DNA from: Bacteroides sp.
Lineage (GTDB): Bacteria; Bacteroidota; Bacteroidia; Bacteroidales; Bacteroidaceae
NCBI GenBank assembly: GCA_017472925.1
Contig: JAFUNS010000043.1
Coordinates: forward strand, 1-46,443
DNA length: 46,443 nucleotides
Direction of reading: 5' to 3'
Every line of letters starts with the position of its first letter. The stretch's first letter is position 1. Both the position numbers and the translations under genes were made by a program. Under the pieces are notes generated by a model, which worked only from the letters and a program-made list of their open reading frames with translations, was not told the origin of the DNA and made no database searches. Of this stretch, positions 6,303-19,786 are shown piece after piece.

Positions 6303-6303
6303 G

Positions 6304-6362
6304 TGCGAACTGCGAACACTTCGAACACCTCGAATGGTTCGTACACATTCGCACCATTCACA
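6304..6362 (+). repeat. 9-base repeat array B, forming a hairpin
   Basis: Units start at 6304 (TGCGAA), 6311 (TGCGAA), 6320 (TTCGAA), 6329 (CTCGAA), 6338 (TTCGTA), 6348 (TTCGCA) and 6357 (TTCACA), so steps are 7, 9, 9, 9, 10, 9. It begins one base after the stop at 6302. The first half carries GTGCGAA and the second TTCGCAC, so the array as a whole can fold on itself. Its step pattern matches array E at 19218. Confidence 0.7.
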
Positions 6363-6418
6363 TTAAAGAGAACAACGTTTTTTAATGATGTAATAAAACA
6401 AGAAATGATAACGGCAAG

Positions 6419-6462
6419 TGTTCGCACTATTCGCACTATTCGAAGTATTCGCACCATTCGCA
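6419..6462 (+). repeat. 9-base repeat array C
   Basis: Five units start at 6421, 6430, 6439, 6448 and 6457 with exact 9-base spacing: TTCGCA, TTCGCA, TTCGAA, TTCGCA, TTCGCA. The array is preceded by AAGTG, as is array D. The orientation is opposite to array A on the plus strand. Confidence 0.75.
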
Positions 6463-6503
6463 TTGATAGAAAAGAATGAGCAAGAAAAAGAAATCATAAC
6501 CAA

Positions 6504-6574
6504 GTGTTCGCACTATTCGCACCATTCGAAGTATTCGCACTATCCGAAGTATTCGCATTGTTCGCATATTCGCA
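6504..6574 (+). repeat. 9-base repeat array D
   Basis: Eight units start at 6507, 6516, 6525, 6534, 6543 (TCCGAA), 6552, 6561 and 6569, with steps 9 x 6 then 8. Arrays C and D share the first five units almost base for base and are separated by about 40 bases of A-rich DNA, so one probably arose from the other. Confidence 0.75.
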
Positions 6575-6729
6575 CCTATTTTTAATGTAAAACGTCAAGG
6601 GTGGTATAGATGATTTTTGGTGAATCCTTGCTACAGATACTTCTGAATAGGGAAATAACTGTTTATCGTGTTTTTCAATGATATAAAATCTTTTTACGTT
6701 AATCTTAATTTCAATTTACATTCAATTAT

Positions 6730-7097: not shown

Positions 7098-7436
7098 ATG
7101 AAAGCAACCCAAGTAAATCAGACCAATGTCATAGCAAAGGCTGTTCAGTTCGTGAACAAGTTCAAGATGGATATTAACGATGCTGTAAGAAAAGGTATAA
7201 TGTTGGAGCAATTGAGAAATCGTATGGTCAATGGCGAAATGGTCAAGTTCAAGTATATGAAAGTGGATGGTTCAATCCGTAGTGCTATCGGTACATTGCA
7301 AGCTGACGTTGTTGCAGCCAATACCAAGGCAAACGGAACATATCATAAACCGATGGGTACATTCTGCTACATTGATTTGGAAAGTTTCGGTTGGAGAAGT
7401 TTCAAGGAAGAAAGACTGATTGAAATTCTCAATTGA
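7098..7436 (+). CDS. DUF2693/WYL_2-like SH3-fold protein
   Basis: A 112-residue protein. The central and C-terminal part matches the pattern of the DUF2693 (Sm-like SH3 beta-barrel) family common on Bacteroidales mobile elements: VKFKYMKVDGSIRSAIGTLQ followed by GTFCYIDLESFGWRSFKEER. The N-terminal third is a helical segment. It has its own promoter (7027-7058) and is followed within 55 bases by the ASCH-like gene, so the two are probably cotranscribed. The molecular function of this family is not established; small SH3-fold proteins of this kind are thought to bind nucleic acid. Confidence 0.65.
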   Translation: MKATQVNQTNVIAKAVQFVNKFKMDINDAVRKGIMLEQLRNRMVNGEMVKFKYMKVDGSIRSAIGTLQADVVAANTKANGTYHKPMGTFCYIDLESFGWRSFKEERLIEILN

Positions 7437-7950: not shown

Positions 7951-8589
7951 ATGAAAAAGGCAGTTATATACGCAAGAGTGAGTTCAACCATTGAACGGAA
8001 CAGACAGAATACGGAACGTCAAGTATTGGATTTAAAAGCCTATGCCGAATATGCTAACTTGGAAGTGGTTGAGGTATTTGAGGAATATATTAGTGGTGGA
8101 AAGCGGAATGATGAAAGAGTCATTCTCCAAGATGCTATTGATTACTGCATTGACAACAAAGTTGATATTTTGCTCACAAGTGAGCTTTCAAGAATTGGAA
8201 GAAGTACATTTGAGGTATTGGAGACGGTGAAAACACTCATTGACCATAAGATTAACTTGTATATGCAAAAGGAGCAATTGACCCTATTGGATGATAATGG
8301 TAAACCATCAATGTTTGCTCCGATAATGTTGGCTACACTTGCTACCTGTGCCCAAATTGAAAGGGATAACATTCAGTTCCGCTTGTCAAGTGGTTACAAG
8401 AACTACAAAGCGAATGGTGGTAAAGTAGGCAGAAAGAAAGGCAGCATCAAGACCACCGAACAAAAGAAAGAAGAATACAAAGAGATTATCCAATTGCTCA
8501 AAAAAGGGTATTCAGTCCGCAATGTGGCAAAGATTTCAAACCGTGGAATTAGTACCGTTCAGAGAATAAAGACGGATTTTTGCCTTTAA
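7951..8589 (+). CDS. Small serine recombinase (resolvase/invertase type)
   Basis: A 212-residue serine recombinase. The N-terminal catalytic domain begins MKKAVIYARVSS with the nucleophilic serine in RVSS, continues with RQNTERQ, and has the second active-site arginine cluster in LTSELSRIGRST near residue 75. A long helix (AQIERDNIQFRLSSGYKNYK) leads to a basic linker and a C-terminal helix-turn-helix (LLKKGYSVRNVAKISNRGIS). Length fits resolvases/DNA invertases rather than large serine integrases. It could resolve multimers or invert DNA; the strongly inverted-repeated stretch just downstream (8620-8895) is a possible site, or an unrelated RNA. The gene reads two CGG codons in frame, relevant to the frameshift question in its neighbours. 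Confidence 0.85.
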   Translation: MKKAVIYARVSSTIERNRQNTERQVLDLKAYAEYANLEVVEVFEEYISGGKRNDERVILQDAIDYCIDNKVDILLTSELSRIGRSTFEVLETVKTLIDHKINLYMQKEQLTLLDDNGKPSMFAPIMLATLATCAQIERDNIQFRLSSGYKNYKANGGKVGRKKGSIKTTEQKKEEYKEIIQLLKKGYSVRNVAKISNRGISTVQRIKTDFCL

Positions 8590-8961: not shown

Positions 8962-9573
8962 ATGTGTAGTTCATCAAATTGCAATACTCTTTGTTTTAAC
9001 AAGAAAAGACCTTATTTAAATATGTTTATGAAGGCTCTAAGTAATGTTAAAGACATTTATATGGAATATGAAACATACCAAGTTATTGGTGATGAGTTGC
9101 AAATTATTACCAAACGTGCAGAAAAAGTTTTTGCCTATGAGCTATATCATCAATTTCGTAAGCTAATGCCTGAAGATTGTGGCTATTATATAAATGGCGA
9201 GATATGGAAGGACAAGAAAATAATAGATAAAGAAAATGTTAGTAGCTGTTATCCTGATTTGGTTCTACACGGTAGTCTTGGATGTGTAGACGTAGATACT
9301 CAGTATTTTTTGTGTGAAATCAAGATGTCTACAAATCAAAATTTATTAGACGATTTAGATAAACTCACAAAGCTTTCAGAATCAGGACTGCATTTTAAAT
9401 CATATATATTTCTTTGTGTCGGAAAATCAAAACAAGAATTATCAGATGAGATTATGAAAAAAAATCCAACTGAATTATATAATGGGGAAATAGTATGTAT
9501 TTGCAAGACCAAAGAGTGTACCGATATATTTGAATTAAATGAAATACTAAATAAACAAAAACAGGTTATATGA
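8962..9573 (+). CDS. PD-(D/E)xK-nuclease-like protein, first gene of the operon
   Basis: A 203-residue protein. The central pattern YPDLVLHG, then about 14 residues, then FLCEIKM fits a PD-...-ExK metal-dependent nuclease core, with a preceding helix (AEKVFAYELYHQFRKLMP) typical of that fold. The N-terminus has an odd Cys-rich start (MCSSSNCNTLCF). It begins about 55 bases after the structured stretch and its stop overlaps the start of the next gene (ATGA at 9570-9573), so it belongs to the secretion-like operon. It could be an inactive or structural member of the fold; the nuclease assignment rests on the motif alone. Confidence 0.5.
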   Translation: MCSSSNCNTLCFNKKRPYLNMFMKALSNVKDIYMEYETYQVIGDELQIITKRAEKVFAYELYHQFRKLMPEDCGYYINGEIWKDKKIIDKENVSSCYPDLVLHGSLGCVDVDTQYFLCEIKMSTNQNLLDDLDKLTKLSESGLHFKSYIFLCVGKSKQELSDEIMKKNPTELYNGEIVCICKTKECTDIFELNEILNKQKQVI

Positions 9574-10466
9574 TTTGTCCAAAATGTAATTCCGAAATAA
9601 AAGATGGTTCAAAGTTCTGTACCAATTGTGGTGAACCATTACCAAAAACAAAGAAGTGTGTTCAGTGTAGTGCTTTCATTAAAGAAGAAGCATTATTCTG
9701 TACTAATTGTGGCACTAAGCAACCTGTAAAGGAAGAAAAGCCAAAGGTTGAAGAAGTTCAGCCAAAGAATGAGGTTAAGACTGAAAATCCTACTCCAAAG
9801 AAAGAGGAAACACCAGTTGTTATAGAAACTCCTAAAACGGAGGAAAAGAAAACTGTGTCTGAACCAAAGGTTAAAAAAGAACAAGTAAAAGTTGAAGCTG
9901 ATAGTGTACCAACGGAAAAGATACCGCAAGAAAAAACAGCATCAACAGCTAAAGAAGAATCAAAGAAACCTAAACCTCGCAAACGTAAAAAGGTTAATTG
10001 GATTGGTATCCTATTATGTATCGGTATGATGGTTGTAGGTTATTGGAAAGCACAAAAAAGTTCCAACAAAGAAGAATATCAACAGCAATATATGGAGTTT
10101 GAAAATACTTCTTCAAACGAACAAGGAAACTATATGAGTCTGTCCGACTTCTATAATGATTATGTGTTTGGTAACAAAGACTTTTCATCTATAGCCCAAA
10201 CAACTTGTACACCCCGACTTTTACAACAATTGAAGGACGCTTATGAATATGAGTGTGAAAGCGGAGATTGTTATGCAATGTGGCTTTTCCGCTCAGGTAA
10301 TCAAGATGGAGTTAGTGATGTCTCAAAGGTTACAAACGTAACTGATGAGGGTGACGGTTGGTTTAAAGTTTCATACATTGATATGGGCATTGAAGGTACT
10401 ACATACATTCGTTTGATTCAATATGGTGAAGTTCAATTAATTGATGAAATACGGAGAGCAAATTAA
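9570..10466 (+). CDS. Double zinc-ribbon, membrane-anchored protein with DUF3828-like domain
   Basis: 298 residues. Two zinc ribbons at the N-terminus (CPKC...CTNC at 3-20 and CVQC...CTNC at 30-48), then a charged low-complexity linker rich in Pro, Glu, Lys and Val (50-145), one membrane segment near residues 147-163 (VNWIGILLCIGMMVVGYW), then a C-terminal domain of about 110 residues that resembles DUF3828/NTF2-like folds (LSDFYNDYVFGNKDFSSIAQ ... VQLIDEIRRAN). Predicted topology: ribbons in the cytoplasm, C-terminal domain outside the inner membrane. Start ATG overlaps the preceding stop. In its operon it is a good candidate for the membrane component of the ATPase machine. Confidence 0.65.
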   Translation: MICPKCNSEIKDGSKFCTNCGEPLPKTKKCVQCSAFIKEEALFCTNCGTKQPVKEEKPKVEEVQPKNEVKTENPTPKKEETPVVIETPKTEEKKTVSEPKVKKEQVKVEADSVPTEKIPQEKTASTAKEESKKPKPRKRKKVNWIGILLCIGMMVVGYWKAQKSSNKEEYQQQYMEFENTSSNEQGNYMSLSDFYNDYVFGNKDFSSIAQTTCTPRLLQQLKDAYEYECESGDCYAMWLFRSGNQDGVSDVSKVTNVTDEGDGWFKVSYIDMGIEGTTYIRLIQYGEVQLIDEIRRAN

Positions 10467-10494
10467 CGGATTGGTTTACTTAAATTGCTGATTT

Positions 10495-11463
10495 ATGTTT
10501 TGTGCGAATTGTGGAACTAAGCAGAATGAGGGTGAAAAGTTTTGTCCTAACTGTGGCACAAAGTTTGAAGAACCATTAAAGGCTGAGGTGACTAAGGTTG
10601 AAGAAGTTTCAAAGCCTGAATCATCTGAACCTATAGAAAGTGTACACCCCCAAAAAGATACAACAGTACAACCCCCAAAAGTGACTTCTAAAGTTACAAT
10701 GACTGTTGATAAAGTTGAAACTTCTGAAGCAAACATAGATGTTGATATTGTTTTAAGTTCAACAGAAGATGCTACTACAAAAGTTGCCACAATGAATGAC
10801 AACAATATAGCAACAGTAAATAAAAAAGACAAGAGTGAAAATACATTCCCTCAACAAAAAGATGACGATAATGGATTAAACAAATTGAAAGAAGAAGCTG
10901 ATAAAGGGAATAAAGAAGCTCAAATGAGTTTAGCCATAAAGTATGAGTTTGGGTTAGGAGTTGCTATTAATATGGATATGGCTAAAAAGTATTATTCAAT
11001 GATTGGCTGCAACAGAAGTCAACCTCAATCATTTTTGATTAACATAGACAACAATAAACAGTCTGGTATTATCTCTGATAAATATCAGATAGAATCGACT
11101 GTTGTATTTGATTCAGAAATAGAAAGACCTAAAATCAAATCTAAATCTATAAAAGAAGGTGAAATTATTTTTAATTGTCTTATTAAATCTGAAGATTTAT
11201 CCGACCAATTGTTAGAACTTATCAATAAATATAATAAACGTAAAGATAAATATTGTCCTATTGAACACTTGAGTGCTCTAGGGCACATCTTTGTCAAATA
11301 TGTGAAACGCTTTGGTTGTTATAAAATAGAGGGTAAGTTTACCGAATTAAAAGATACTAGTTATCTTGGCTTCTTTACATCTAGGTCATACCACAAGGAA
11401 ATAGATGACATAAAAGCAGACTTCTTGAATATTTATGAATTGTGCAATTCTCTAAGAATGTAA
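10495..11463 (+). CDS. Zinc-ribbon and Sel1-like repeat protein
   Basis: 322 residues. One N-terminal zinc ribbon (CANC...CPNC, residues 3-20) closely like the second ribbon of the gene before it, a low-complexity linker to about residue 125, one Sel1-like repeat (EADKGNKEAQMSLAIKYEFG), then a C-terminal domain of about 170 residues with no recognised family. No membrane segment. Base composition falls sharply in AT content terms from about position 10860, where the Sel1 and C-terminal parts are much more AT-rich than the ribbon and linker. This change continues into the next gene, ATPase, which starts 7 bases later. That fits replacement of a variable module. Confidence 0.6.
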   Translation: MFCANCGTKQNEGEKFCPNCGTKFEEPLKAEVTKVEEVSKPESSEPIESVHPQKDTTVQPPKVTSKVTMTVDKVETSEANIDVDIVLSSTEDATTKVATMNDNNIATVNKKDKSENTFPQQKDDDNGLNKLKEEADKGNKEAQMSLAIKYEFGLGVAINMDMAKKYYSMIGCNRSQPQSFLINIDNNKQSGIISDKYQIESTVVFDSEIERPKIKSKSIKEGEIIFNCLIKSEDLSDQLLELINKYNKRKDKYCPIEHLSALGHIFVKYVKRFGCYKIEGKFTELKDTSYLGFFTSRSYHKEIDDIKADFLNIYELCNSLRM

Positions 11464-11469
11464 AACAAA

Positions 11470-14454
11470 ATGAAGACATTGATTCATTTAAAAGAATTGT
11501 TGCGTTATTTTGCTAGCAACAATAACTATTCATCAACAGAGCTTGTTGCTGATGTTAGGAAATTGGTCTATCAATATCCTTTGCTGCTACACGTTTTATG
11601 TGATAAAAATATCAGTTTAGAGGAAGCCATAAATCTTGTTGAAAGGCTAAAAGATGCCGCTATTGATAATTATATACCATACTTCCCTTCAACATCAAGA
11701 TTCATAGATGTTATAGGAAACGATATTATAGAGACTCCTGCAATTAGAGCAGCTGAGTTTAACAATCTTTCCGTTTCTAAAGATGATTTAACTCCTTATT
11801 TGTTAAGTGTAGTTCTTTCATTGCCAATAAAAAAGTTAAACTTAACTTTTATTGATTTGGATTCCACATATAGTTATGATTTCATTTTAAAGAATATTTC
11901 TCCCGTATTATATAATAAGGCACCTATAACAACCAAATCCGACTTAAATAAATATATAGATAAAGTATCTAAAAGATTTTTGAAGTTTCAGCAGCAGTAT
12001 AGGGATTATTCTATCTATTGTACTGAAAATAAAACAATCCCAACACCTTATGAGATTATTGTGGTTATAGGAAATCTAGAAAAAGAATATCAAAAGAAAA
12101 TAGAAATATTAAAAAACAGAGGTCATGAAGCTGGCATTTATGTTATATTTCAAAAAGAATATGGTGGTCTTCAACTGTTAAATCAATTTAATTTAAATCA
12201 ATTTGATTGGATTATAAATGGCAGTATAAGAGATATTATAAATCAAAATAGAAACAAATATATTTTTGATAATGTAAAAGTAGATGAATGGCTGTATTAC
12301 AAAGGGAAAATATCGTATGAAGTTCTTAGGGAAGCATTCGTTTTATATCCTAATGATGGAAGCCTTGTTGTCAACAATGTATTAAAGAGAAAAGCACCAT
12401 TTTGTTTTTACCAAAGACAATGCAATTGCAATAAAAATGATTCTCACAAGTATTCTGTTGAGTGTTTTGAAGATTATGACAATGAAACAGGAAAGTGTGG
12501 ATATAATTATGGATATACAGAAGGGTTTGAATATAAAATAGAACATTTAGAAATAAAAGATGTTTCTGTACATAACCAATCGAGATTGTTAGAGTGTATT
12601 CCAATTACTGAAAATAAGAATCTATTGAAAGTCTGTTTGGAATACATAAACAATGAAGCTGAGAAGAAAGAGTCGATTGTAATTAAACAAGATTTCAACA
12701 AATCAGCTTCAAACACTTACGAAAAGAATCTTGAAACTATAACTATACCAATCGGTAAATCTTCCAAAGCGGAAGTAAACTTCACGATGGATATGGTCAG
12801 CCACGTCCATTCATTCATTATCGGTCAGTCAGGTTCAGGTAAGTCTGTATTCTTACATAATATCATTGGTTCTTCCATATTGAAATATGCTCCCGAAGAC
12901 CTGCAATTGTATTTGCTTGACTTTAAATTGGGTGGTGTTGAATTTAACCGATATAAGGGTATCAAGCACGTGAAATCCCTTTTGGTGGACAATTCCGACC
13001 AACAAATCACACTTGAAATATTGAGAGAACTTCGTGAACGTATGGTTGAACGAGGAAGACAGCTTCGTGATTGTGGTGTAAATAACCTTGTGGAATACAA
13101 CAAGCAAAATCCCAACGCAACAATGCCACAAATTTTGTTGGTGGTGGATGAATGTCACGAAATGTTCAGAGTGGGCAGCGATATTCCAAGAACGGTAAGC
13201 AACGAGATTTCAGAAATCATCACCAAGATAGCCAAAGAAGGTCGTAGCCAAGGTGTTCACCTTATACTAGCTACCCAAACATTATCAGGTACGGAAATAA
13301 GCAATGAAATCCTCAACAATGTTTCCGACCATTACCTCTTGAAATGTGCAACGGCAGATTCTGAACGGATGGTTGAAAGGAGTTCTGAAATTACAAGCCA
13401 ACTTTCTACAGGACAAATCTACTATCACCACGTGGACAGTCAGGTACAGTTCCAGGCATACTACACCGATAAGGAAAATGCAGAGAAACTGATTGACCTT
13501 GCAAAGAAAAAGGCTGAAAACCACCAAAGCAATGGTGAGTTCTATTTCAACGGTTCACAATTGTTCAAGCTGGATGAAACGGTTATGGAGCAAGGAAAGA
13601 AACGTGCAAAATATCCTGTAGCCTATATGGGTAAGAATATCAGCATCAGTCAGAATGACCTGAGCATTACATTAAGAAAGGACTACAGTGAGAATATACT
13701 CTTGTTCGGTTTGAATGATGTGGAACAAGTAACAAGAACAACGATGAATCTGTTCATTTCCCTGATGTCATATACCAAACGCAAGGGATTGGATTATCAG
13801 TTCAAGGTGTTCAATTGCCTATCCAATGAGGATAGCATCTATACCGAGCAATTGGATATGTTGGAAGAAGAGGGATATTGTGAAATCATTGAAGGTAGAA
13901 AAGATAGAGGTAAGTTCTTGAAACAACTGGCAGAAGACATATCCAATGAAACGGTTGGAAATACCATTCTTCTAATATTGGGTCAGGAACGTTTCCGTGA
14001 ATTGAAGATGGATATGGAAATAGCCCAAGAGCAAAGCAAACCAAGTGAAGATGATGCTTTCGGTTTCGGTGGTTTCAGCTTCAGCAATGAGGGTACATCC
14101 TCTTCATCCATAAAGACTTTTAAGCAAGCATTGGAGTTGATTTTAGATAAGGGGCCAGAGTTTGGTGTGCATACTATTATGCAGTTGGATAAACCATCCA
14201 ATTTCCTATTCAGTGATTACATTTCACCAAAGATGGTCTATCAGAAGTTCAAGCATCTGATTATGTTGAAATCTGATGAAGCAGCATCGGCCCAATTGCA
14301 TTTGAATGACAATATCCGTTTGGAAACATTGAGCAAGGATTTGGAACGTTTGCGTGCCTATTACTATTCGGAAGAAAGTGATACGTTCACCTTGTTCACA
14401 CCTTATATGGAATTGAGTAACGAAGAAATAATGAACCTTTTAAAAACAGAATAA
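11470..14454 (+). CDS. FtsK/SpoIIIE (EssC-like) secretion-type ATPase
   Basis: 994 residues. The central motor domain has Walker A GQSGSGKS (452-459), Walker B LLVVDE (556-561) and the FtsK-type LILATQTLSGTEIS loop. The C-terminal third looks like a second, degenerate FtsK domain: NILLFGLNDVEQ lacks the GKS/T lysine, and LILGQERF lacks the acidic pair, as in the inactive domains of EssC. The N-terminal 430 residues contain another degenerate P-loop-like segment (YEIIVVIGNLEKEYQKKIEI ... HEAGIYVIFQ). No membrane segment, so it must dock on a membrane partner, possibly the zinc-ribbon protein at 9570. Positions 11470 to about 12735 are very AT-rich compared with the rest of the gene. It is followed three bases later by a WXG100-like gene, which argues for a type VII-like role rather than DNA translocation. 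Confidence 0.8.
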   Translation: MKTLIHLKELLRYFASNNNYSSTELVADVRKLVYQYPLLLHVLCDKNISLEEAINLVERLKDAAIDNYIPYFPSTSRFIDVIGNDIIETPAIRAAEFNNLSVSKDDLTPYLLSVVLSLPIKKLNLTFIDLDSTYSYDFILKNISPVLYNKAPITTKSDLNKYIDKVSKRFLKFQQQYRDYSIYCTENKTIPTPYEIIVVIGNLEKEYQKKIEILKNRGHEAGIYVIFQKEYGGLQLLNQFNLNQFDWIINGSIRDIINQNRNKYIFDNVKVDEWLYYKGKISYEVLREAFVLYPNDGSLVVNNVLKRKAPFCFYQRQCNCNKNDSHKYSVECFEDYDNETGKCGYNYGYTEGFEYKIEHLEIKDVSVHNQSRLLECIPITENKNLLKVCLEYINNEAEKKESIVIKQDFNKSASNTYEKNLETITIPIGKSSKAEVNFTMDMVSHVHSFIIGQSGSGKSVFLHNIIGSSILKYAPEDLQLYLLDFKLGGVEFNRYKGIKHVKSLLVDNSDQQITLEILRELRERMVERGRQLRDCGVNNLVEYNKQNPNATMPQILLVVDECHEMFRVGSDIPRTVSNEISEIITKIAKEGRSQGVHLILATQTLSGTEISNEILNNVSDHYLLKCATADSERMVERSSEITSQLSTGQIYYHHVDSQVQFQAYYTDKENAEKLIDLAKKKAENHQSNGEFYFNGSQLFKLDETVMEQGKKRAKYPVAYMGKNISISQNDLSITLRKDYSENILLFGLNDVEQVTRTTMNLFISLMSYTKRKGLDYQFKVFNCLSNEDSIYTEQLDMLEEEGYCEIIEGRKDRGKFLKQLAEDISNETVGNTILLILGQERFRELKMDMEIAQEQSKPSEDDAFGFGGFSFSNEGTSSSSIKTFKQALELILDKGPEFGVHTIMQLDKPSNFLFSDYISPKMVYQKFKHLIMLKSDEAASAQLHLNDNIRLETLSKDLERLRAYYYSEESDTFTLFTPYMELSNEEIMNLLKTE

Positions 14455-14456
14455 CT

Positions 14457-14738
14457 ATGGCACAGGAAGTAGGAGTAAGAAATATTGCAGAATTGAAACA
14501 ATTCGGCAGTGATTTGAAAAGATTGAGCGAACAGCTTGCAAGTGCATTTCACGCTGCGGAAAACAAGATGCATCACGTTTGCGATGGTTGGAACGACAAT
14601 GTGAATATCAAGTTTATGAACGAGTTCCAAAAGAACGTGAAGGAAATTGATAAAATTGCAGCCAATATGCAAGACTTTTCCAAGTTCATTGGAAAGAGCT
14701 GCGATTTGTTGGAAATGTATCAGAACAACCGTTTTTAA
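14457..14738 (+). CDS. WXG100-like helical protein (WND motif), first copy
   Basis: 93 residues, all helical: a first helix (ELKQFGSDLKRLSEQLASAF), a turn with CDGWNDN at residue 43-49, then a second helix (VNIKFMNEFQKNVKEIDKIA). Size, hairpin layout and the Trp-x-Asp turn agree with WXG100 (ESAT-6-like) proteins, where W-x-G/D sits between two helices. Starts two bases after the ATPase stop; that pairing is the hallmark of type VII secretion loci. No signal peptide. It is likely a substrate or substrate-adaptor of the ATPase. The C-terminus MYQNNRF lacks a clear YxxxD/E export signal. Confidence 0.65.
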   Translation: MAQEVGVRNIAELKQFGSDLKRLSEQLASAFHAAENKMHHVCDGWNDNVNIKFMNEFQKNVKEIDKIAANMQDFSKFIGKSCDLLEMYQNNRF

Positions 14739-14749
14739 GCACTTAGATT

Positions 14750-15226
14750 ATGGCAGCAGATGCTAAGATACAGAGGGTTGAAGAATTGGCTGCATATTCC
14801 AACCATTTGGGTGGATTTATAGAGTCAATGTCCAAGAACTTCACTTCATTCAACAATGTGATGATGCAGAAACTTGAAGTTCTCCGTCAGAAATTGAGAA
14901 AGGTTGAAGAAATGGAAGCCGAAGCAATTGCTGAATGGAAACAGATTGAGAATGAATTGGCATACTGTTCTTCTGAGAATGTTGAAGAAAGACGTAAATT
15001 GTTGGTTGAGTTGAAAGAAGCCGAACATAAAAAGGGAGCAGCCCAACGAATGAAAAGCGAGGTGTTTTCACAATACAATGTGGCACAAGGAGCGGTACGT
15101 TGTATGTTGGATAATACTCAAATGATTCAGAAGAAGCTGCGTGAAGATATAGCGAAAGGTCGGCAGTTATTGAAGAATGCATCAGTACAATTAGAACAAT
15201 ACAAAGATAATTCAAAGAAAGTATGA
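14750..15226 (+). CDS. Coiled-coil protein within the WXG100-like set
   Basis: 158 residues, almost entirely helical and charged. Residues 40-85 form a likely coiled coil (QKLRKVEEMEAEAIAEWKQI), followed by a second helical pair (ELKEAEHKKGAAQRMKSEVF). The N-terminal 40 residues (VEELAAYSNHLGGFIESMSK) resemble the first helix of WXG/LXG-type proteins. No signal peptide or membrane segment. Lies between the two WND proteins, 11 bases after one and overlapping the next by four bases (ATGA, 15223-15226). Probably binds its neighbours, as a chaperone or spacer of the exported complex; that is inference. Confidence 0.6.
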   Translation: MAADAKIQRVEELAAYSNHLGGFIESMSKNFTSFNNVMMQKLEVLRQKLRKVEEMEAEAIAEWKQIENELAYCSSENVEERRKLLVELKEAEHKKGAAQRMKSEVFSQYNVAQGAVRCMLDNTQMIQKKLREDIAKGRQLLKNASVQLEQYKDNSKKV

Positions 15227-15459
15227 ATCCGTTACAGTTGATGAACAATGATATAGCAACCTTGATGATGAGTTCCCAAAAAGTATTTGAGCATTGGAAC
15301 GACAAGGTGGCTGATGGTATGAAGAATAATTGCATTGCAAACATTCAACGTGATTGGAAAGCCTATATAGATGAAATGAACACGAGAATGAACATCTATA
15401 TGCGTGCTGAAAAGGAAATTGATGATGCAATTGCAGATTATGAACGAAAGACAAGATAA
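15223..15459 (+). CDS. WXG100-like helical protein (WND motif), second copy
   Basis: 78 residues: helix, turn FEHWNDKVADG at residues 23-33, helix to the C-terminus with Tyr at positions 59 and 74 (NIYMRAEKEIDDAIADYERK). The Trp-Asn-Asp turn is shared with the 93-residue protein encoded 700 bases upstream, supporting a pair of distant paralogues that may form a heterodimer like EsxA/EsxB. Overlaps the coiled-coil gene stop by four bases, so translation is coupled. Shorter than the usual 95-100 residues. Confidence 0.6.
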   Translation: MNPLQLMNNDIATLMMSSQKVFEHWNDKVADGMKNNCIANIQRDWKAYIDEMNTRMNIYMRAEKEIDDAIADYERKTR

Positions 15460-15494
15460 GTTCAAACAGTTCCTATTTGACCACCATTATCATT

Positions 15495-16205
15495 ATGGAA
15501 TACAATGAACTGAAACATATATCAAGGGAACTTATCAATGAGTTTATGGAATATGAATCAATGCTTGTCCACGACAATAAGATGAGCATTGATGATTATT
15601 CTGAAATGAAGGACAAACTGATTTTCCGTTTATGCCATTATCAGCACATTGATATTGACAACACCCTTTTTACCGAAAACGGGAAGATGGGTATGAAGAA
15701 CAATGTGTTCGGTACAGTTCTTATTCCACCAATCTATGATGAGATACCCCATATTGTAGCCAAAGGATATTATTCGGTTGCAATTAATAAAAACAAATAT
15801 GGTATTGTAAAGGCAGATGGCAAAGGAACAATCATATTCCCATTTATCTATGACCTTGCTTATGAACTGAGCGAGGATTATTATGTAGGTGTATATTGCG
15901 TAACATTGAACGGAAAGCAAGGCATTGTTTCAGTTTGTCGTGATATTACAAGAACGGAAGTGGAACCTGAATATGACTTGATAGAACATATTTGGGATAG
16001 CCATTTCACATTGCTCAAAAAGGATAATAAATGTGGTTTATGGAGTTATGACCATTTCATTACACCCATTTATGATGATGTGTTCGTTCCTGAAGTGTTG
16101 GGTTGGATAATGGTTAAGAAAGATGGTGAATGGGGTTACATTGATGAAAACAATAATTACACCAAGGATATGGACAAGGCATTTCTATATCATTTCAGAG
16201 GGTGA
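15495..16205 (+). CDS. WG-repeat protein 1
   Basis: 236 residues. The frame extends back to a TTG at 15477, but the ATG at 15495 (MEYNELKHISRELINEFMEY) is the likelier start. After an N-terminal helical segment of about 60 residues come about five WG-type beta repeats: NGKMGMKNN...IPPIYDEI, NKYGIVKADGKG...FIYD, GKQGIVSV, NKCGLWSYDHFITPIYDDVF and DGEWGYIDENNNYTKDM. Such WG_beta_rep domains are thought to be binding scaffolds. No signal peptide is visible. Two paralogues follow at 16290 and 17385 and share the same closing motif (W-G-Y-x-D-x-x-N-x-x-T-x-D). Confidence 0.7.
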   Translation: MEYNELKHISRELINEFMEYESMLVHDNKMSIDDYSEMKDKLIFRLCHYQHIDIDNTLFTENGKMGMKNNVFGTVLIPPIYDEIPHIVAKGYYSVAINKNKYGIVKADGKGTIIFPFIYDLAYELSEDYYVGVYCVTLNGKQGIVSVCRDITRTEVEPEYDLIEHIWDSHFTLLKKDNKCGLWSYDHFITPIYDDVFVPEVLGWIMVKKDGEWGYIDENNNYTKDMDKAFLYHFRG

Positions 16206-16289
16206 TATTTTTGTACCGACCAAATTAAAGCGTTATATTTGAAGTCAAATTATGATATGATTTATCCATTATTATATATCAAATAATAT

Positions 16290-16994
16290 ATGTGTGATTT
16301 TGATGAAGATAGAGAAATGAAACCATTGACCCGTGAAGTGTTGGAGGACTTTTCAAACAGATGTGCAACCTTGAAGATATTCAATGAGGGTACACCTGAT
16401 TATGATGGTTTATGGAGTGATATTTGGTGTGAAGCGGAAGAATATCAACCAATGAAGGACTTTATCCATACCGTACAGGAAAACGGAAAGGAAGGGGTAA
16501 AGAATGATTTCTTTAATCATTGGATTGTTCCACCGATATTTGACAAGATTGTAGATGAAACGAATGCAAGTCTCAACTATATTGTAATGGATAACGGCAA
16601 ATACGGTATCATCCAATCAGATGGAAAAGGAACATTGGTATGCCCTTGCATTTATGATAACATTGAACCATTAAGCAATTTCGGTGATTTGGTCAAGATA
16701 ACAGTGAACGGCAAATATGGTATCATTGAATTATATAGCGGTGATTTTGCAAAGGTAAAGGCTGAACCAATCTATGATGATATTCAGGAAACCGATGGCG
16801 GTTATGTAATCCTGAAAAAGAATGGTAAATGTGGTTTGTTCAAATATGGATATGTATTGCCAACCGAATATGAACGTATTTTCATTCCTACCGTGATGGG
16901 GTGGATAAAGGTAATGAAAAATGGTGTTTGGGGATATGTTGATACCAAAAATGAGTTTACCGAAGATATGAATAAGGCATTTTTACATTTATAA
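16290..16994 (+). CDS. WG-repeat protein 2
   Basis: 234 residues; start ATG 16290. An N-terminal region without repeats (residues 1-65) is followed by WG-type repeats: NGKEGVKNDFFNHWIVPPIF, NGKYGIIQSDGKGTLVCPCI, NGKYGIIELYSGDF, NGKCGLFKYGYVLPTEYERI and NGVWGYVDTKNEFTEDMNKA. Clearly a paralogue of the 15495 gene over the repeat part, with a different N-terminus. The 84-base gap before it is AT-rich. No signal or membrane segment. It could be an immunity protein, adaptor or surface-binding partner of the ATPase system; nothing in the sequence decides. Confidence 0.7.
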   Translation: MCDFDEDREMKPLTREVLEDFSNRCATLKIFNEGTPDYDGLWSDIWCEAEEYQPMKDFIHTVQENGKEGVKNDFFNHWIVPPIFDKIVDETNASLNYIVMDNGKYGIIQSDGKGTLVCPCIYDNIEPLSNFGDLVKITVNGKYGIIELYSGDFAKVKAEPIYDDIQETDGGYVILKKNGKCGLFKYGYVLPTEYERIFIPTVMGWIKVMKNGVWGYVDTKNEFTEDMNKAFLHL

Positions 16995-16998
16995 TACT

Positions 16999-17373
16999 AT
17001 GGATAAGGTTAAGTTTGCTGAGTTCTTGGATTATGTCCTGAACTACAATTTCAAGGAAGATGTAAAGTGTATCAGACCAAGAGTCCTGATAAAGAATACA
17101 CTAATATCAATCATTCTATATACCAAAGATTATGATGTAATAGAATACGGTGATTTTACTCATAAGGAGTTTAAAAAGGAGTTTGTCAATACTTTGATTA
17201 AGGATGAATACATTGACAAGGACAAGAATCCGTTGGATTTGGTTGATGAAATTTCCAAATGGGAGTTCTATTTGAACCTGACTGATGGATATGATGTATA
17301 TTCAACCGTACATCTTTTTGATTACACGAATGACGGATTGAAGTTTGTAGGTGAAGCGTCAATGACTATATAA
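16999..17373 (+). CDS. Unknown small acidic protein
   Basis: 124 residues, start ATG 16999, only four bases after the previous stop. Mixed helix and strand (KFAEFLDYVLNYNFKEDVKC ... VHLFDYTNDGLKFVGEASMT). No recognised family, no signal peptide. Its position between two WG-repeat genes, with tight spacing on each side (12 bases to the next start), makes it part of the operon. Size and acidity would suit an immunity or adaptor protein, but this is a guess. Confidence 0.55.
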   Translation: MDKVKFAEFLDYVLNYNFKEDVKCIRPRVLIKNTLISIILYTKDYDVIEYGDFTHKEFKKEFVNTLIKDEYIDKDKNPLDLVDEISKWEFYLNLTDGYDVYSTVHLFDYTNDGLKFVGEASMTI

Positions 17374-17384
17374 ATGGATATGTT

Positions 17385-18038
17385 ATGACCAAGTTGTCGC
17401 CAAGTTCTACAAGAGATTTCTTGTTTGATGATAGAGTACCTATCCTGATTGAAGAAAACGGCAGGAAAGGGCTTAAAATGAGTGACGGTAAGATTGTCAT
17501 TCCACCGATATATGATACCATTGAACAATTGAGGTCATTTACTACAAGTAGCTATCTGTATAAGGTGGTAAAGGATGGTAAATATGGTATGATTGATGTG
17601 GAACACGATAAAGTGGTCAAAAGGTTGGACGTTGAGTATAGTTCATTCCATTGGCTTCCTAATGATGACCTCTTATTGTGCAAGAACGGCAAGTATGGTG
17701 TTTGGGATTGGCATATCTATGTCCCTTGTGAATATGATGAAATCACCTTTGTTGAATATGAGAAGAAACAAAAGATTGGAGAGCTTGAATGGGATTATCA
17801 GGACAATTACCTGTTGTTGAGGAAAGGCAACAAGTATGGTTTGTGGTCGATTGATACCAAACTATTGCCTCCCATATATGATGAGATTGCACCACCGATT
17901 GACGATTGGGGTATTAGAGTAAAAAAGGATGGTGAATGGGGTTACTTGGATAAGAACAACAATTTTACCACTGACATTTCAGAAGTTCCATTGAAATGGG
18001 AGAACTTGAATGATGTGGGTGGTGGTATCAGTTTTTGA
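17385..18038 (+). CDS. WG-repeat protein 3
   Basis: 217 residues, start ATG 17385. Repeats begin almost at once: NGRKGLKMSDGKIVIPPIYD, DGKYGMIDVEHDKV, NGKYGVWDWHIYVPCEYDEI, GNKYGLWSIDTKLLPPIYDE and DGEWGYLDKNNNFTTDISEV. It is the repeat part of the two preceding paralogues with a much shorter N-terminus, and a different last 20 residues ending GGGISF. Last gene of the operon; the terminator at 18053-18084 follows 14 bases after the stop. Confidence 0.7.
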   Translation: MTKLSPSSTRDFLFDDRVPILIEENGRKGLKMSDGKIVIPPIYDTIEQLRSFTTSSYLYKVVKDGKYGMIDVEHDKVVKRLDVEYSSFHWLPNDDLLLCKNGKYGVWDWHIYVPCEYDEITFVEYEKKQKIGELEWDYQDNYLLLRKGNKYGLWSIDTKLLPPIYDEIAPPIDDWGIRVKKDGEWGYLDKNNNFTTDISEVPLKWENLNDVGGGISF

Positions 18039-18101: not shown

Positions 18102-18998
18102 TTAGTTCCATAATGGTTCGGATTGCCAATTTTCAGGAAAACCCATTGCTTTCAACGTTTGCTTTGGTTTATCGTTCAACAAATCAACAATTTCCTTTCT
18201 GAAAGCACTATTTGGATTTATACTTTGTTCTAAATATGCCAAATAACAGAATTGGGCATATAGTTTAATGGGACGGACATATTGAACATTTTGCATCCAA
18301 TTAAGAGGCATTTTTTGTGGAAGTTGTGGTTTCCAAGCAAAGCGTCTATTCCAAAGACGTGAATGATGGGCACATAGATTTCTTAATACAGTAGCACATT
18401 TCAACCAACTTTCCAAATAAATATATTGGGGTATAGCAAGACTTTTTGCGACTTGTTTTTTAACCTCAGTGTCTTTAAAATTACAATACAGTTTGGACAA
18501 AGTTCCAAAAGAAGCAACTTCCAATGTTTTCCAAACAGGCGGTAAAGACGGTTCGTCATATTTGGCGAAATGTTCAGTCAAGAACTCTTCCTTAGAACGT
18601 AAAACTTCTTTTTCTATATTTTTCAAACAGGCATCGTGTATGGTAGTATCCTTAAACAAGTTGGCATCCATAAACCAAAACGAACCATACTTCAATGAAA
18701 AGAATTGGATAATTCTTGTTCTAAGTGCTATTTCTATATCTTGTATGGAAGTAAAAACCAAGGTTCTCAGTTTTTTATCGAATGTATATGTAGTAATAAT
18801 ATCCTCAAAATTACTATCAGGTAAAAACTGATGCTTGTCTGCTTGATTTTCCATAGAACTCCAATAACTAGCCAATCTGAAATAACTGATGGAATGTAGT
18901 TGCTCCAATGCCATTTCTTCATTGGCAATGGTCAAACCTCTTTGCTTCAAATTTTCAAGTTGCTGAGGTAAATCTATTGGACGTTTATCATATTTCAT
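18102..18998 (-). CDS. Abi_2-family abortive infection protein with HEPN-type motif
   Basis: 298 residues from ATG 18998 (MKYDKRPIDLPQQLENLKQR). The frame reaches back to 19037, but that ATG lies inside the upstream hairpin and the family normally begins like the chosen start. The Abi_2 features are present: the N-terminal P-x-x-x-Q-Q-L-x-x-L-x-x-R-G segment, ISYFRLASYW, the FDKKLRTLVFTSIQDIEIAL region, and the HEPN RNase-like motif RNLCAHHSRLWNR near residue 213 (R-x4-H). Family members (AbiD/AbiF) abort phage infection. It stands alone, convergent to the secretion-like operon and near the tRNA end of the element. Probable cargo defence gene. Confidence 0.85.
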   Translation of the reverse strand: MKYDKRPIDLPQQLENLKQRGLTIANEEMALEQLHSISYFRLASYWSSMENQADKHQFLPDSNFEDIITTYTFDKKLRTLVFTSIQDIEIALRTRIIQFFSLKYGSFWFMDANLFKDTTIHDACLKNIEKEVLRSKEEFLTEHFAKYDEPSLPPVWKTLEVASFGTLSKLYCNFKDTEVKKQVAKSLAIPQYIYLESWLKCATVLRNLCAHHSRLWNRRFAWKPQLPQKMPLNWMQNVQYVRPIKLYAQFCYLAYLEQSINPNSAFRKEIVDLLNDKPKQTLKAMGFPENWQSEPLWN

Positions 18999-19009
18999 AT
19001 ACCCATATA

Positions 19010-19060
19010 AAAAGCGAAGTCCCACCGTGGTACGCATCGTTGAGAGGCGTGGTGGGAATT
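19010..19060 (-). ncRNA. Strong hairpin upstream of the Abi gene, abiF-RNA-like
   Basis: CCCACC (19021-19026) pairs with GGTGGG (19051-19056) and ACGC (19032-19035) with GCGT (19047-19050), leaving an asymmetric inner loop. On the minus strand the hairpin is followed by ACTTCGCTTTTTA and, 12 bases further on, by the Abi start codon. A structured RNA motif named abiF has been described next to genes of this family; the position fits, but I cannot align it to the model by eye. Confidence 0.45.
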
Positions 19061-19212: not shown

Positions 19213-19217
19213 TGGGG

Positions 19218-19267
19218 TGCGAACTGCGAACAGTGCGAATACTTGGAACACTTCGAATAGGTTCGCA
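19218..19267 (+). repeat. 9-base repeat array E
   Basis: Units start at 19218, 19225, 19234 (TGCGAA), 19243 (TTGGAA), 19252 (TTCGAA) and 19262 (TTCGCA), with steps 7, 9, 9, 9, 10. The outer units form perfect arms GTGCGAAC (19217-19224) and GTTCGCAC (19261-19268). The step pattern is that of array B at 6304, 12.9 kb away. Confidence 0.65.
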
Positions 19268-19667
19268 CATCTACAGAAACAACAAATGACTATACTGTAA
19301 AAGAATGGTCTGAATATTCAAAAATAGACCTTTATTTAGATTCAAAACAAATTTCAGGAATCAGATTTTAATTTGTTGAAAAATTGGATTTTTAGGGAAA
19401 CATCCTTACTTTTGTATCGTTCAATTCTGAGTGCCTAAAGAACAATTTTAAAGAACAATTGCTGTAAGTTATTGATTTTCAAGACGAGTATAATTTTGCG
19501 AGAATTTGAGAGATAAAGATAATTTCAATAACACCTTTTCAATAATAAAATCAATCCCAATTACCACTATAATAAGGAATTGTTGCAAATATATCGAAAA
19601 GATTTGAAATGTCTGTCATTCCATTGTATTTTTGCGCTTGCCAAACTAAAATAGCAGACTGAATTAA
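19268..19667. other. Gene-free AT-rich stretch between array E and the tRNA terminator
   Basis: No convincing gene. A promoter-like pair ATTG (19383-19386) with 20 bases and TACTTTTG (19407-19414) points rightwards. AAAGAACAATT is repeated at 19437-19447 and 19450-19460 (period 13). The element boundary may lie in this stretch or at the tRNA 3' end; I cannot place it without the other end. Confidence 0.35.
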
Positions 19668-19701: not shown

Positions 19702-19712
19702 GATTTTTTGAG

Positions 19713-19786
19713 TGGACCAGCCTGGGCTTGAACCAGGGACCTCCAGATTATGAGTCTGTTGCTCTAACCAACTGAGCTACAAGTCC
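19713..19786 (-). tRNA. tRNA with CAT anticodon (probably elongator tRNA-Met)
   Basis: On the minus strand: acceptor GGACTTG/CTGGTCC with discriminator A, D arm GCTC-AGTTGGTTA-GAGC, anticodon loop CTCATAA with CAT, variable AGGTC, T arm CCTGG-TTCAAGC-CCAGG. No CCA is encoded. The anticodon stem lacks the three G-C pairs of initiator tRNA, so it is the elongator Met tRNA, or the isoleucine tRNA whose C34 is modified to lysidine. Its 3' end faces the accessory DNA to the left, a common integration target. Confidence 0.9.

Follow-up and report, generated by a model that had tools for sequence, protein, structure and literature searches.

Type VII secretion systems (T7SS) have recently been classified into the subtypes T7SSa-T7SSj (PMC11217815); as set out in the accessible part of that paper, they come from Bacillota and Actinomycetota only, and their ATPases are membrane-bound. 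Here, we describe an operon from gut Bacteroidales that has in common with T7SSa-j, by the same account, an EccC/EssC-type ATPase and a WXG100 protein. It occupies positions 8962-18038 of a 46,443-nucleotide stretch of DNA (the window; contig JAFUNS010000043.1, assembly GCA_017472925.1) from the draft genome of a Bacteroides sp. (2.8 Mb, 79.7% complete) and consists of eleven genes (A-K), all read in the same direction (+) and separated by short gaps in the list of open reading frames (ORFs), where all genes named in an earlier note on this DNA, made from the sequence alone, were found.

The kind of system has already been described in print, in a few sentences. Footnote 6 to Table 1 of Zhang et al. 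2012 (PMC3482391) refers to 'mobile versions of T7SS' with a YueA-like ATPase; unlike the account given here, the footnote holds no gene set, no W-x-D motif, no F or G proteins and no adaptors. In the available sections of a 2024 paper (PMC11090510), Type III-A CoCoNuT loci are reported to encode EssC homologues lacking transmembrane (TM) helices, along with a D-ExK nuclease and a pair of WXG100 proteins; the authors infer that they serve defence through secretion by 'a different mechanism', and cite Anantharaman 2012 for stand-alone copies. As described in those sections, the CoCoNuT module has in common with the operon an ATPase that lacks TM helices and in which an active domain is followed by a degenerate one (the CoCoNuT ATPase has three domains with activity in the central one, an arrangement that D may share), two proteins of WXG100 type and a nearby restriction-endonuclease-like D-ExK protein. 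Unlike CoCoNuT, the operons considered here have zinc-ribbon/TM, Sel1-TM or TerB/SPFH partners, and neither the McrB/CnuB GTPase nor CnuC or TerY-P was recognised among the proteins scanned, in which no dedicated CoCoNuT search was made. As far as their accessible text goes, the two descriptions rule out a categorically new kind of system, and the word 'undescribed' in the earlier note has to be withdrawn. In their available parts, PMC1779556, PMC5555719 and PMC3935865 hold nothing on Bacteroidales copies, and no study of the Bacteroidales version was found among the literature matches listed, whose coverage mostly leaves out subscription papers and preprints. What is new here is the four-gene core (D-E-F-G), the W-x-D signature that E and G carry and its resemblance to the Helicobacter pylori protein HP0062, together with the partner sets, a recurrent domain of protein B and the island setting of the operon.

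We read the operon as a relative of the type VII secretion core that lacks membrane helices and has spread horizontally, and that would move helical proteins or a partner of theirs into or across the envelope; the probability of this reading is put at approx. 0.45. By both sequence and fold, D (11470-14454, +; 994 amino acids, aa) is strongly supported as an EccC/EssC-type ATPase with catalytic motifs in one domain alone. In particular, every one of 25 D proteins contains exactly one GxxxxGK[S/T] motif, and G457, K458, S459, D560 and E561 are invariant (25/25). In structure comparison, D residues 402-994 align with the tandem EccC/EssC domains, and the nearest structural match of the D model is EccC/EssC, not HerA. 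The structure supports a degenerate ATPase domain behind the active one, and a further inactive domain may lie in front of the active one at approx. residues 71-230. The earlier note had proposed one active and probably two inactive domains; the active domain and the inactive one behind it are borne out, while the one in front is our reading of the alpha/beta secondary structure of the model. Window D and its counterpart in a related locus (L018) share 87% identity over the active domain and 36-41% over residues 1-240 (E, 94%), which indicates that the N-terminal part of D changes fastest. In the mobile TM-less modules in print, the ATPase has a long N-terminal coiled coil; N-terminal extensions are present in the approx. 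1300-aa D proteins of L038, L040 and L054. Hydrophobic segments near the N-terminus are seen in the sequences of the distant ATPases of L003 and L004 (1057 and 1080 aa).

The length of the structural match bears on the alternative in which a mobile element encodes D as an FtsK/TcpA-type DNA translocase; B would then be its periplasmic, conjugation-like part, and the small helical proteins would merely resemble WXG100. The B-type domain encoded in L033 has a weak match to the Pfam model TpcC (conjugation protein; 4e-4, below the cut-off), and this TcpC match speaks for such a translocase; however, the alignment with the tandem EccC/EssC domains is about twice as long, which disfavours a plain FtsK/TcpA translocase. 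Given also the profile matches of E, the invariance of its W-x-D motif and the fact that Pfam matched no relaxase in the window operon, we consider the translocase very unlikely.

E (14457-14738, +; 93 aa) is strongly supported, at the level of its sequence family, as a WXG100-superfamily hairpin with a changed motif. Window E alone reaches 0.0011-0.0019 with the Pfam WXG100 models, below the cut-off. When its own genome was searched, Pfam WXG100 gave an E-value of 0.008, and the same model matched 13 of 14 control genomes at an E-value of 1 or less, above the cut-off in one; since the Pfam model is weak by itself in a genome, the E family profile was relied on. WXG100 is matched at 0.01 or better by 22 of the 25 E family members (best 1.5e-8), and a profile built from 15 E proteins finds Staphylococcus aureus EsxA (7e-7), group B Streptococcus (GBS) EsxA (1e-5), EsxB (1e-4) and H. 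pylori HP0062 (0.009), with one designed protein also among its first matches. The turn of E reads W-x-D, not W-x-G, in all 25 proteins and in 15/15 rows of the E alignment, including the two-copy variants of L028 and L029; the former encodes two E-like proteins in tandem (L028:7811-8408).

The same turn, W-x-D and not W-x-G, is found in 16/16 G proteins, and G (15223-15459, +; 78 aa) is predicted to form a hairpin like E: in the AF2 model (pLDDT 95.3), helices 3-24 and 28-77 flank the turn W25-N-D27, and profile comparison places the turns of G and E in register (94% probability). Pfam WXG100 matches 4 of the 16 G proteins, and a Foldseek search of the G model against the Protein Data Bank (PDB) returned no significant structure (best E-value 2.4). 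The WXG100 comparison proposed in the earlier note thus favours E by profile, and for G it yields a modelled hairpin with no significant PDB fold. F (14750-15226, +; 158 aa) is a coiled-coil protein with weak Pfam matches below the cut-off, and its first helix is E-like in profile comparison (82% probability). An ATPase followed by two WND proteins and then a coiled coil had been noted earlier; the genes are as claimed, but the order is D-E-F-G, with the coiled-coil F between the WND proteins E and G. The type VII-like character of the core itself is upheld by D and E.

The turn motif links E with a protein from another Gram-negative bacterium. According to the accessible text of PMC3397514, HP0062 of H. 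pylori carries WRD in its bend and has an FtsK/SpoIIIE gene in its cluster, and PMC4978471, in its available part, names HP0062 and HP0066 (an FtsK-type protein). Like E, HP0062 is described there as a hairpin with W-x-D in place of W-x-G; the profile match between the two is weak. The operon may tie HP0062, whose structure is solved but unexplained, to a larger W-x-D family.

Of the loci found by scanning 84,980 species genomes, the best 80 were kept (counts are lower bounds), and gene content was examined in L033-L058. The first 24 loci (L033-L056) belong to Bacteroidales or Bacteroidia by title or kinship and include Prevotella, Bacteroides, Alistipes, Segatella copri and metagenome-assembled genomes (MAGs); the rest are two Campylobacterota and otherwise actinobacterial. 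E follows D in 24/24 of these related loci, directly in 23 and with one gene between them in L056 (likewise in L020), which is more than chance and agrees with the earlier view of a gene set kept together in other genomes. The full D-E-F-G core is present in 15 loci, such as that of isolate SW299 (L052), and D-E alone in nine, such as that of a Segatella copri strain (L043). In the Campylobacterota loci L057 and L058, the D-like ATPase is shorter (571 and 575 aa), and only weak matches to the E, F and G profiles were obtained (best 0.011, L058).

A patchy, mobile distribution of the operon, with horizontal movement, is supported by sequence comparisons, as the earlier note had expected. D is 63% identical to its counterpart in G414, a genome of another genus, versus 29% in G258, of the same genus. 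E was found in 2/61 genomes of the genus (own genome included) and 2/395 across the phylum, both from the same genus, and D, at 1e-20, in at least 13/399 genomes of the family and at least 4/295 of the order (own genome included; lower bounds, with at most two candidates scored per genome). G+C content is 32.5-35.7% in the operon and in the block on its left, compared with 44.8% in the right flank and 40-44% in nine stretches of the genome. The low-G+C block ends near a tRNA-Met gene (19712-19786, -). A relative (G371:C2) contains an exact 51-base copy of the 3' part of this tRNA approx. 16 kb from it, which is consistent with the tRNA being an insertion hot spot; no such copy was found in the window, the left end of which coincides with that of the contig. 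In plasmid and phage collections, 664 and 208 records match D, and none covers 80% of it.

The most likely contact with the envelope in the window is B (9570-10466, +; 298 aa), which combines a double zinc ribbon (Pfam DZR, 4e-11), one hydrophobic segment (VNWIGILLCIGMMVVGYWK; hydropathy peak 1.49 at residue 142) and a C-terminal domain. The zinc ribbons are predicted to be cytoplasmic and the C-terminal domain periplasmic. This domain, called DUF3828-like in the earlier note, lacks Pfam support for that name in the window but recurs in related loci: in B of L018, a 450-aa protein of L033 and a 176-aa protein of L041 (7e-9). The L033 protein, encoded right after G (L033:14531-15883), is a fusion of zinc ribbon, TM segment, B domain and TonB_C (5e-23) and provides a possible link to the outer membrane. 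The L041 protein starts with a hydrophobic stretch followed by LMSC, which to the eye resembles the signal of a lipoprotein. In 18/26 loci, a protein with a TM segment or signal is encoded within the operon or beside it (16 by script, the window and L033 by eye); the hydropathy threshold of the script misses the segments of window B and L033, and L036, L042, L047, L051 and L056 are truncated or ambiguous for envelope partners.

Other loci have other partners. Among the nine D-E-only loci, an SPFH-type protein is encoded in six (L043, L046, L049, L050, L051 and L053) and a TerB-like/zinc-ribbon/TM protein in five (the same loci except L051, where the contig ends); the SPFH, TerB-like and Lcl_C-like assignments were made mostly by eye and in L043 by Pfam. 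The partner sets overlap, as the D-E-F-G locus L041 has both kinds and L048 has the SPFH-type protein. Families that recur among the 78 co-operonic proteins (window and L018 included) are Zn_Ribbon_1 (8), GYF_2 (7), Band_7_1 (7), WG repeats (6), LRR_5 (5) and Sel1 (5). WG repeats occur in the window, L018 (by similarity) and L034 (beyond a TM segment), and upstream of D in L035 lie an A-like gene and a Sel1-TM gene. FHA, PP2C and Ser/Thr kinase genes directly follow D-E-F-G in L037 (L037:5135-9431), partners also found in some T7SS subtypes according to the accessible part of PMC11217815, and SprT-like proteins are encoded right after G in L036 and L039. The operon of the distant L029 begins with the ATPase and two W-x-D hairpins and includes JAB peptidase (1e-10) and E1-like ThiF (2e-22) genes (L029:4723-6866) as well as a TonB_C protein (3e-11), a possible link between ubiquitin-like conjugation and the ATPase/hairpin module. 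In the distant relative L032, a 520-aa protein follows the hairpin pair; its one Pfam match is a coiled-coil model below the cut-off, and hence no effector is claimed.

Several observations weigh against movement into or across the envelope. Unlike EccC/EssC, D has no evident membrane helix: the hydropathy peaks of the 25 D proteins are 0.91-1.71 (hydropathy alone, without a dedicated TM predictor), and the peak of window D (1.39 at residue 110) falls within a helix-strand of the first alpha/beta domain in the model. None of the 25 E proteins has a YxxxD/E-type tail, and no toxin-plus-immunity pair was recognised in the operons, for which no dedicated library was searched. Within 4 kb, L040 shows no envelope protein on its strand; those of L038 and L054 lie only beyond other genes. 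The signal of the L041 protein, seen by eye, was not flagged by the lipobox pattern. YukC/EssB, the one further T7SS part covered by the genome-wide search, had no match in the 79.7% complete draft genome of the window.

The loci without close envelope proteins, together with the CoCoNuT parallel, keep a serious rival in play: an intracellular conflict or defence machine, in which a TM-less D ring acts on nucleic acid or protein complexes, the W-x-D hairpins regulate it, A is the effector and nothing is exported. The structural proximity of D to EccC/EssC rather than HerA and the envelope proteins added in 18/26 loci speak against it; we regard it as a real possibility that is nonetheless not the better bet. 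A complete T7SS-type channel with membrane subunits encoded elsewhere in the genome would likewise account for a core that matches the T7SS ATPase and WXG100, and L038, L040 and L054 would need such unlinked parts. However, YukC/EssB was not found in the draft genome (79.7% complete), and a self-contained cassette fits the patchy, horizontally moved distribution better, so that this channel appears improbable.

If the operon is indeed a relative of the type VII core, D would assemble as a cytoplasmic hexamer at the inner membrane, where a locus-specific adaptor would hold it; in the window this would be B, with its zinc ribbons inside and its globular domain on the periplasmic side. E, either by itself or together with F and G as hairpin bundles, would bind D in the way in which EccC is bound by EsxB-type proteins, and ATP hydrolysis would move or insert the helical proteins, or a carried partner, into or across the envelope. 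The variable genes A, C and H-K may encode adaptors or cargo, and the most likely use would be conflict with other bacteria or phages. A wider proposal, which we put forward as doubtful, is that these operons form a distinct class of type VII-like envelope machines in double-membraned bacteria: a soluble EssC-type ring and W-x-D hairpins would be mounted on exchangeable membrane adaptors (zinc-ribbon-TM-periplasmic domain, Sel1-TM, or TerB-zinc-ribbon-TM with an SPFH partner), the cassette would be swapped among gut Bacteroidales, and W-x-D would mark a Gram-negative branch that includes HP0062. Members that may be grown (Segatella copri, L043; isolate SW299, L052) could show whether a WXG100/EssC pair can do without membrane helices and work in double-membraned cells, and the conserved core lies outside the phyla treated in the available part of PMC11217815.

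The remaining genes of the operon flank the core. A (8962-9573, +; 203 aa) is PD-(D/E)xK nuclease-like by sequence pattern: 'YPDLVLH...CEIK' also occurs in homologues upstream of D in L033 and L035, and 'P-D...E-x-K' is kept in 3/3, which favours the nuclease reading of the earlier note, though A has no Pfam or PADLOC match. C (10495-11463, +; 322 aa) contains a zinc ribbon (Zn_Ribbon_1, 3e-6) and a weak Sel1-like stretch (0.18, below the cut-off). Downstream of G, H (15495-16205, +; alternative start TTG at 15477), I (16290-16994, +) and K (17385-18038, +) are WG-repeat proteins (WG_beta_rep 1e-12, 1e-12 and 1e-9), so that the zinc-ribbon and three WG-repeat proteins noted earlier are all recovered by Pfam; J (16999-17373, +; 124 aa), like A and G, matched no Pfam family.

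In a PADLOC comparison of defence-related neighbours (1e-15), 110 of 147 flank proteins of 24 loci were set against 110 of 221 proteins encoded in 20 control stretches, which came from three genomes of the family. There were 78 families in the flanks versus 11 in the controls, many of them near-identical models on the same proteins, so that distinct proteins cannot be counted; the commonest family had four members versus one, and the models were mostly PD-T4-6/mad6, which we take to be kinase-type. Over 40 sources, a kinase-motif script, which misses some PADLOC-matched kinases, found two in L037 and one in L045; the 20 control stretches gave none. Just past the operon end, an AbiD-type protein is encoded at 18102-19056 (-; PADLOC AbiD 3e-75, Pfam Abi_2 2e-55), and an abiF RNA (RF03085, 19020-19056) overlaps the start of the listed ORF, whose true start may be further in. 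To the left of the operon lie a WYL_2 protein (7098-7436, +) and a serine recombinase (7951-8589, +; Resolvase 3e-28). A 9-base unit (TTCGCACTA-like) forms arrays, partly inverted, in spacers to the left and right of the operon (2916-2980, 6303-6575 and 19217-19268).

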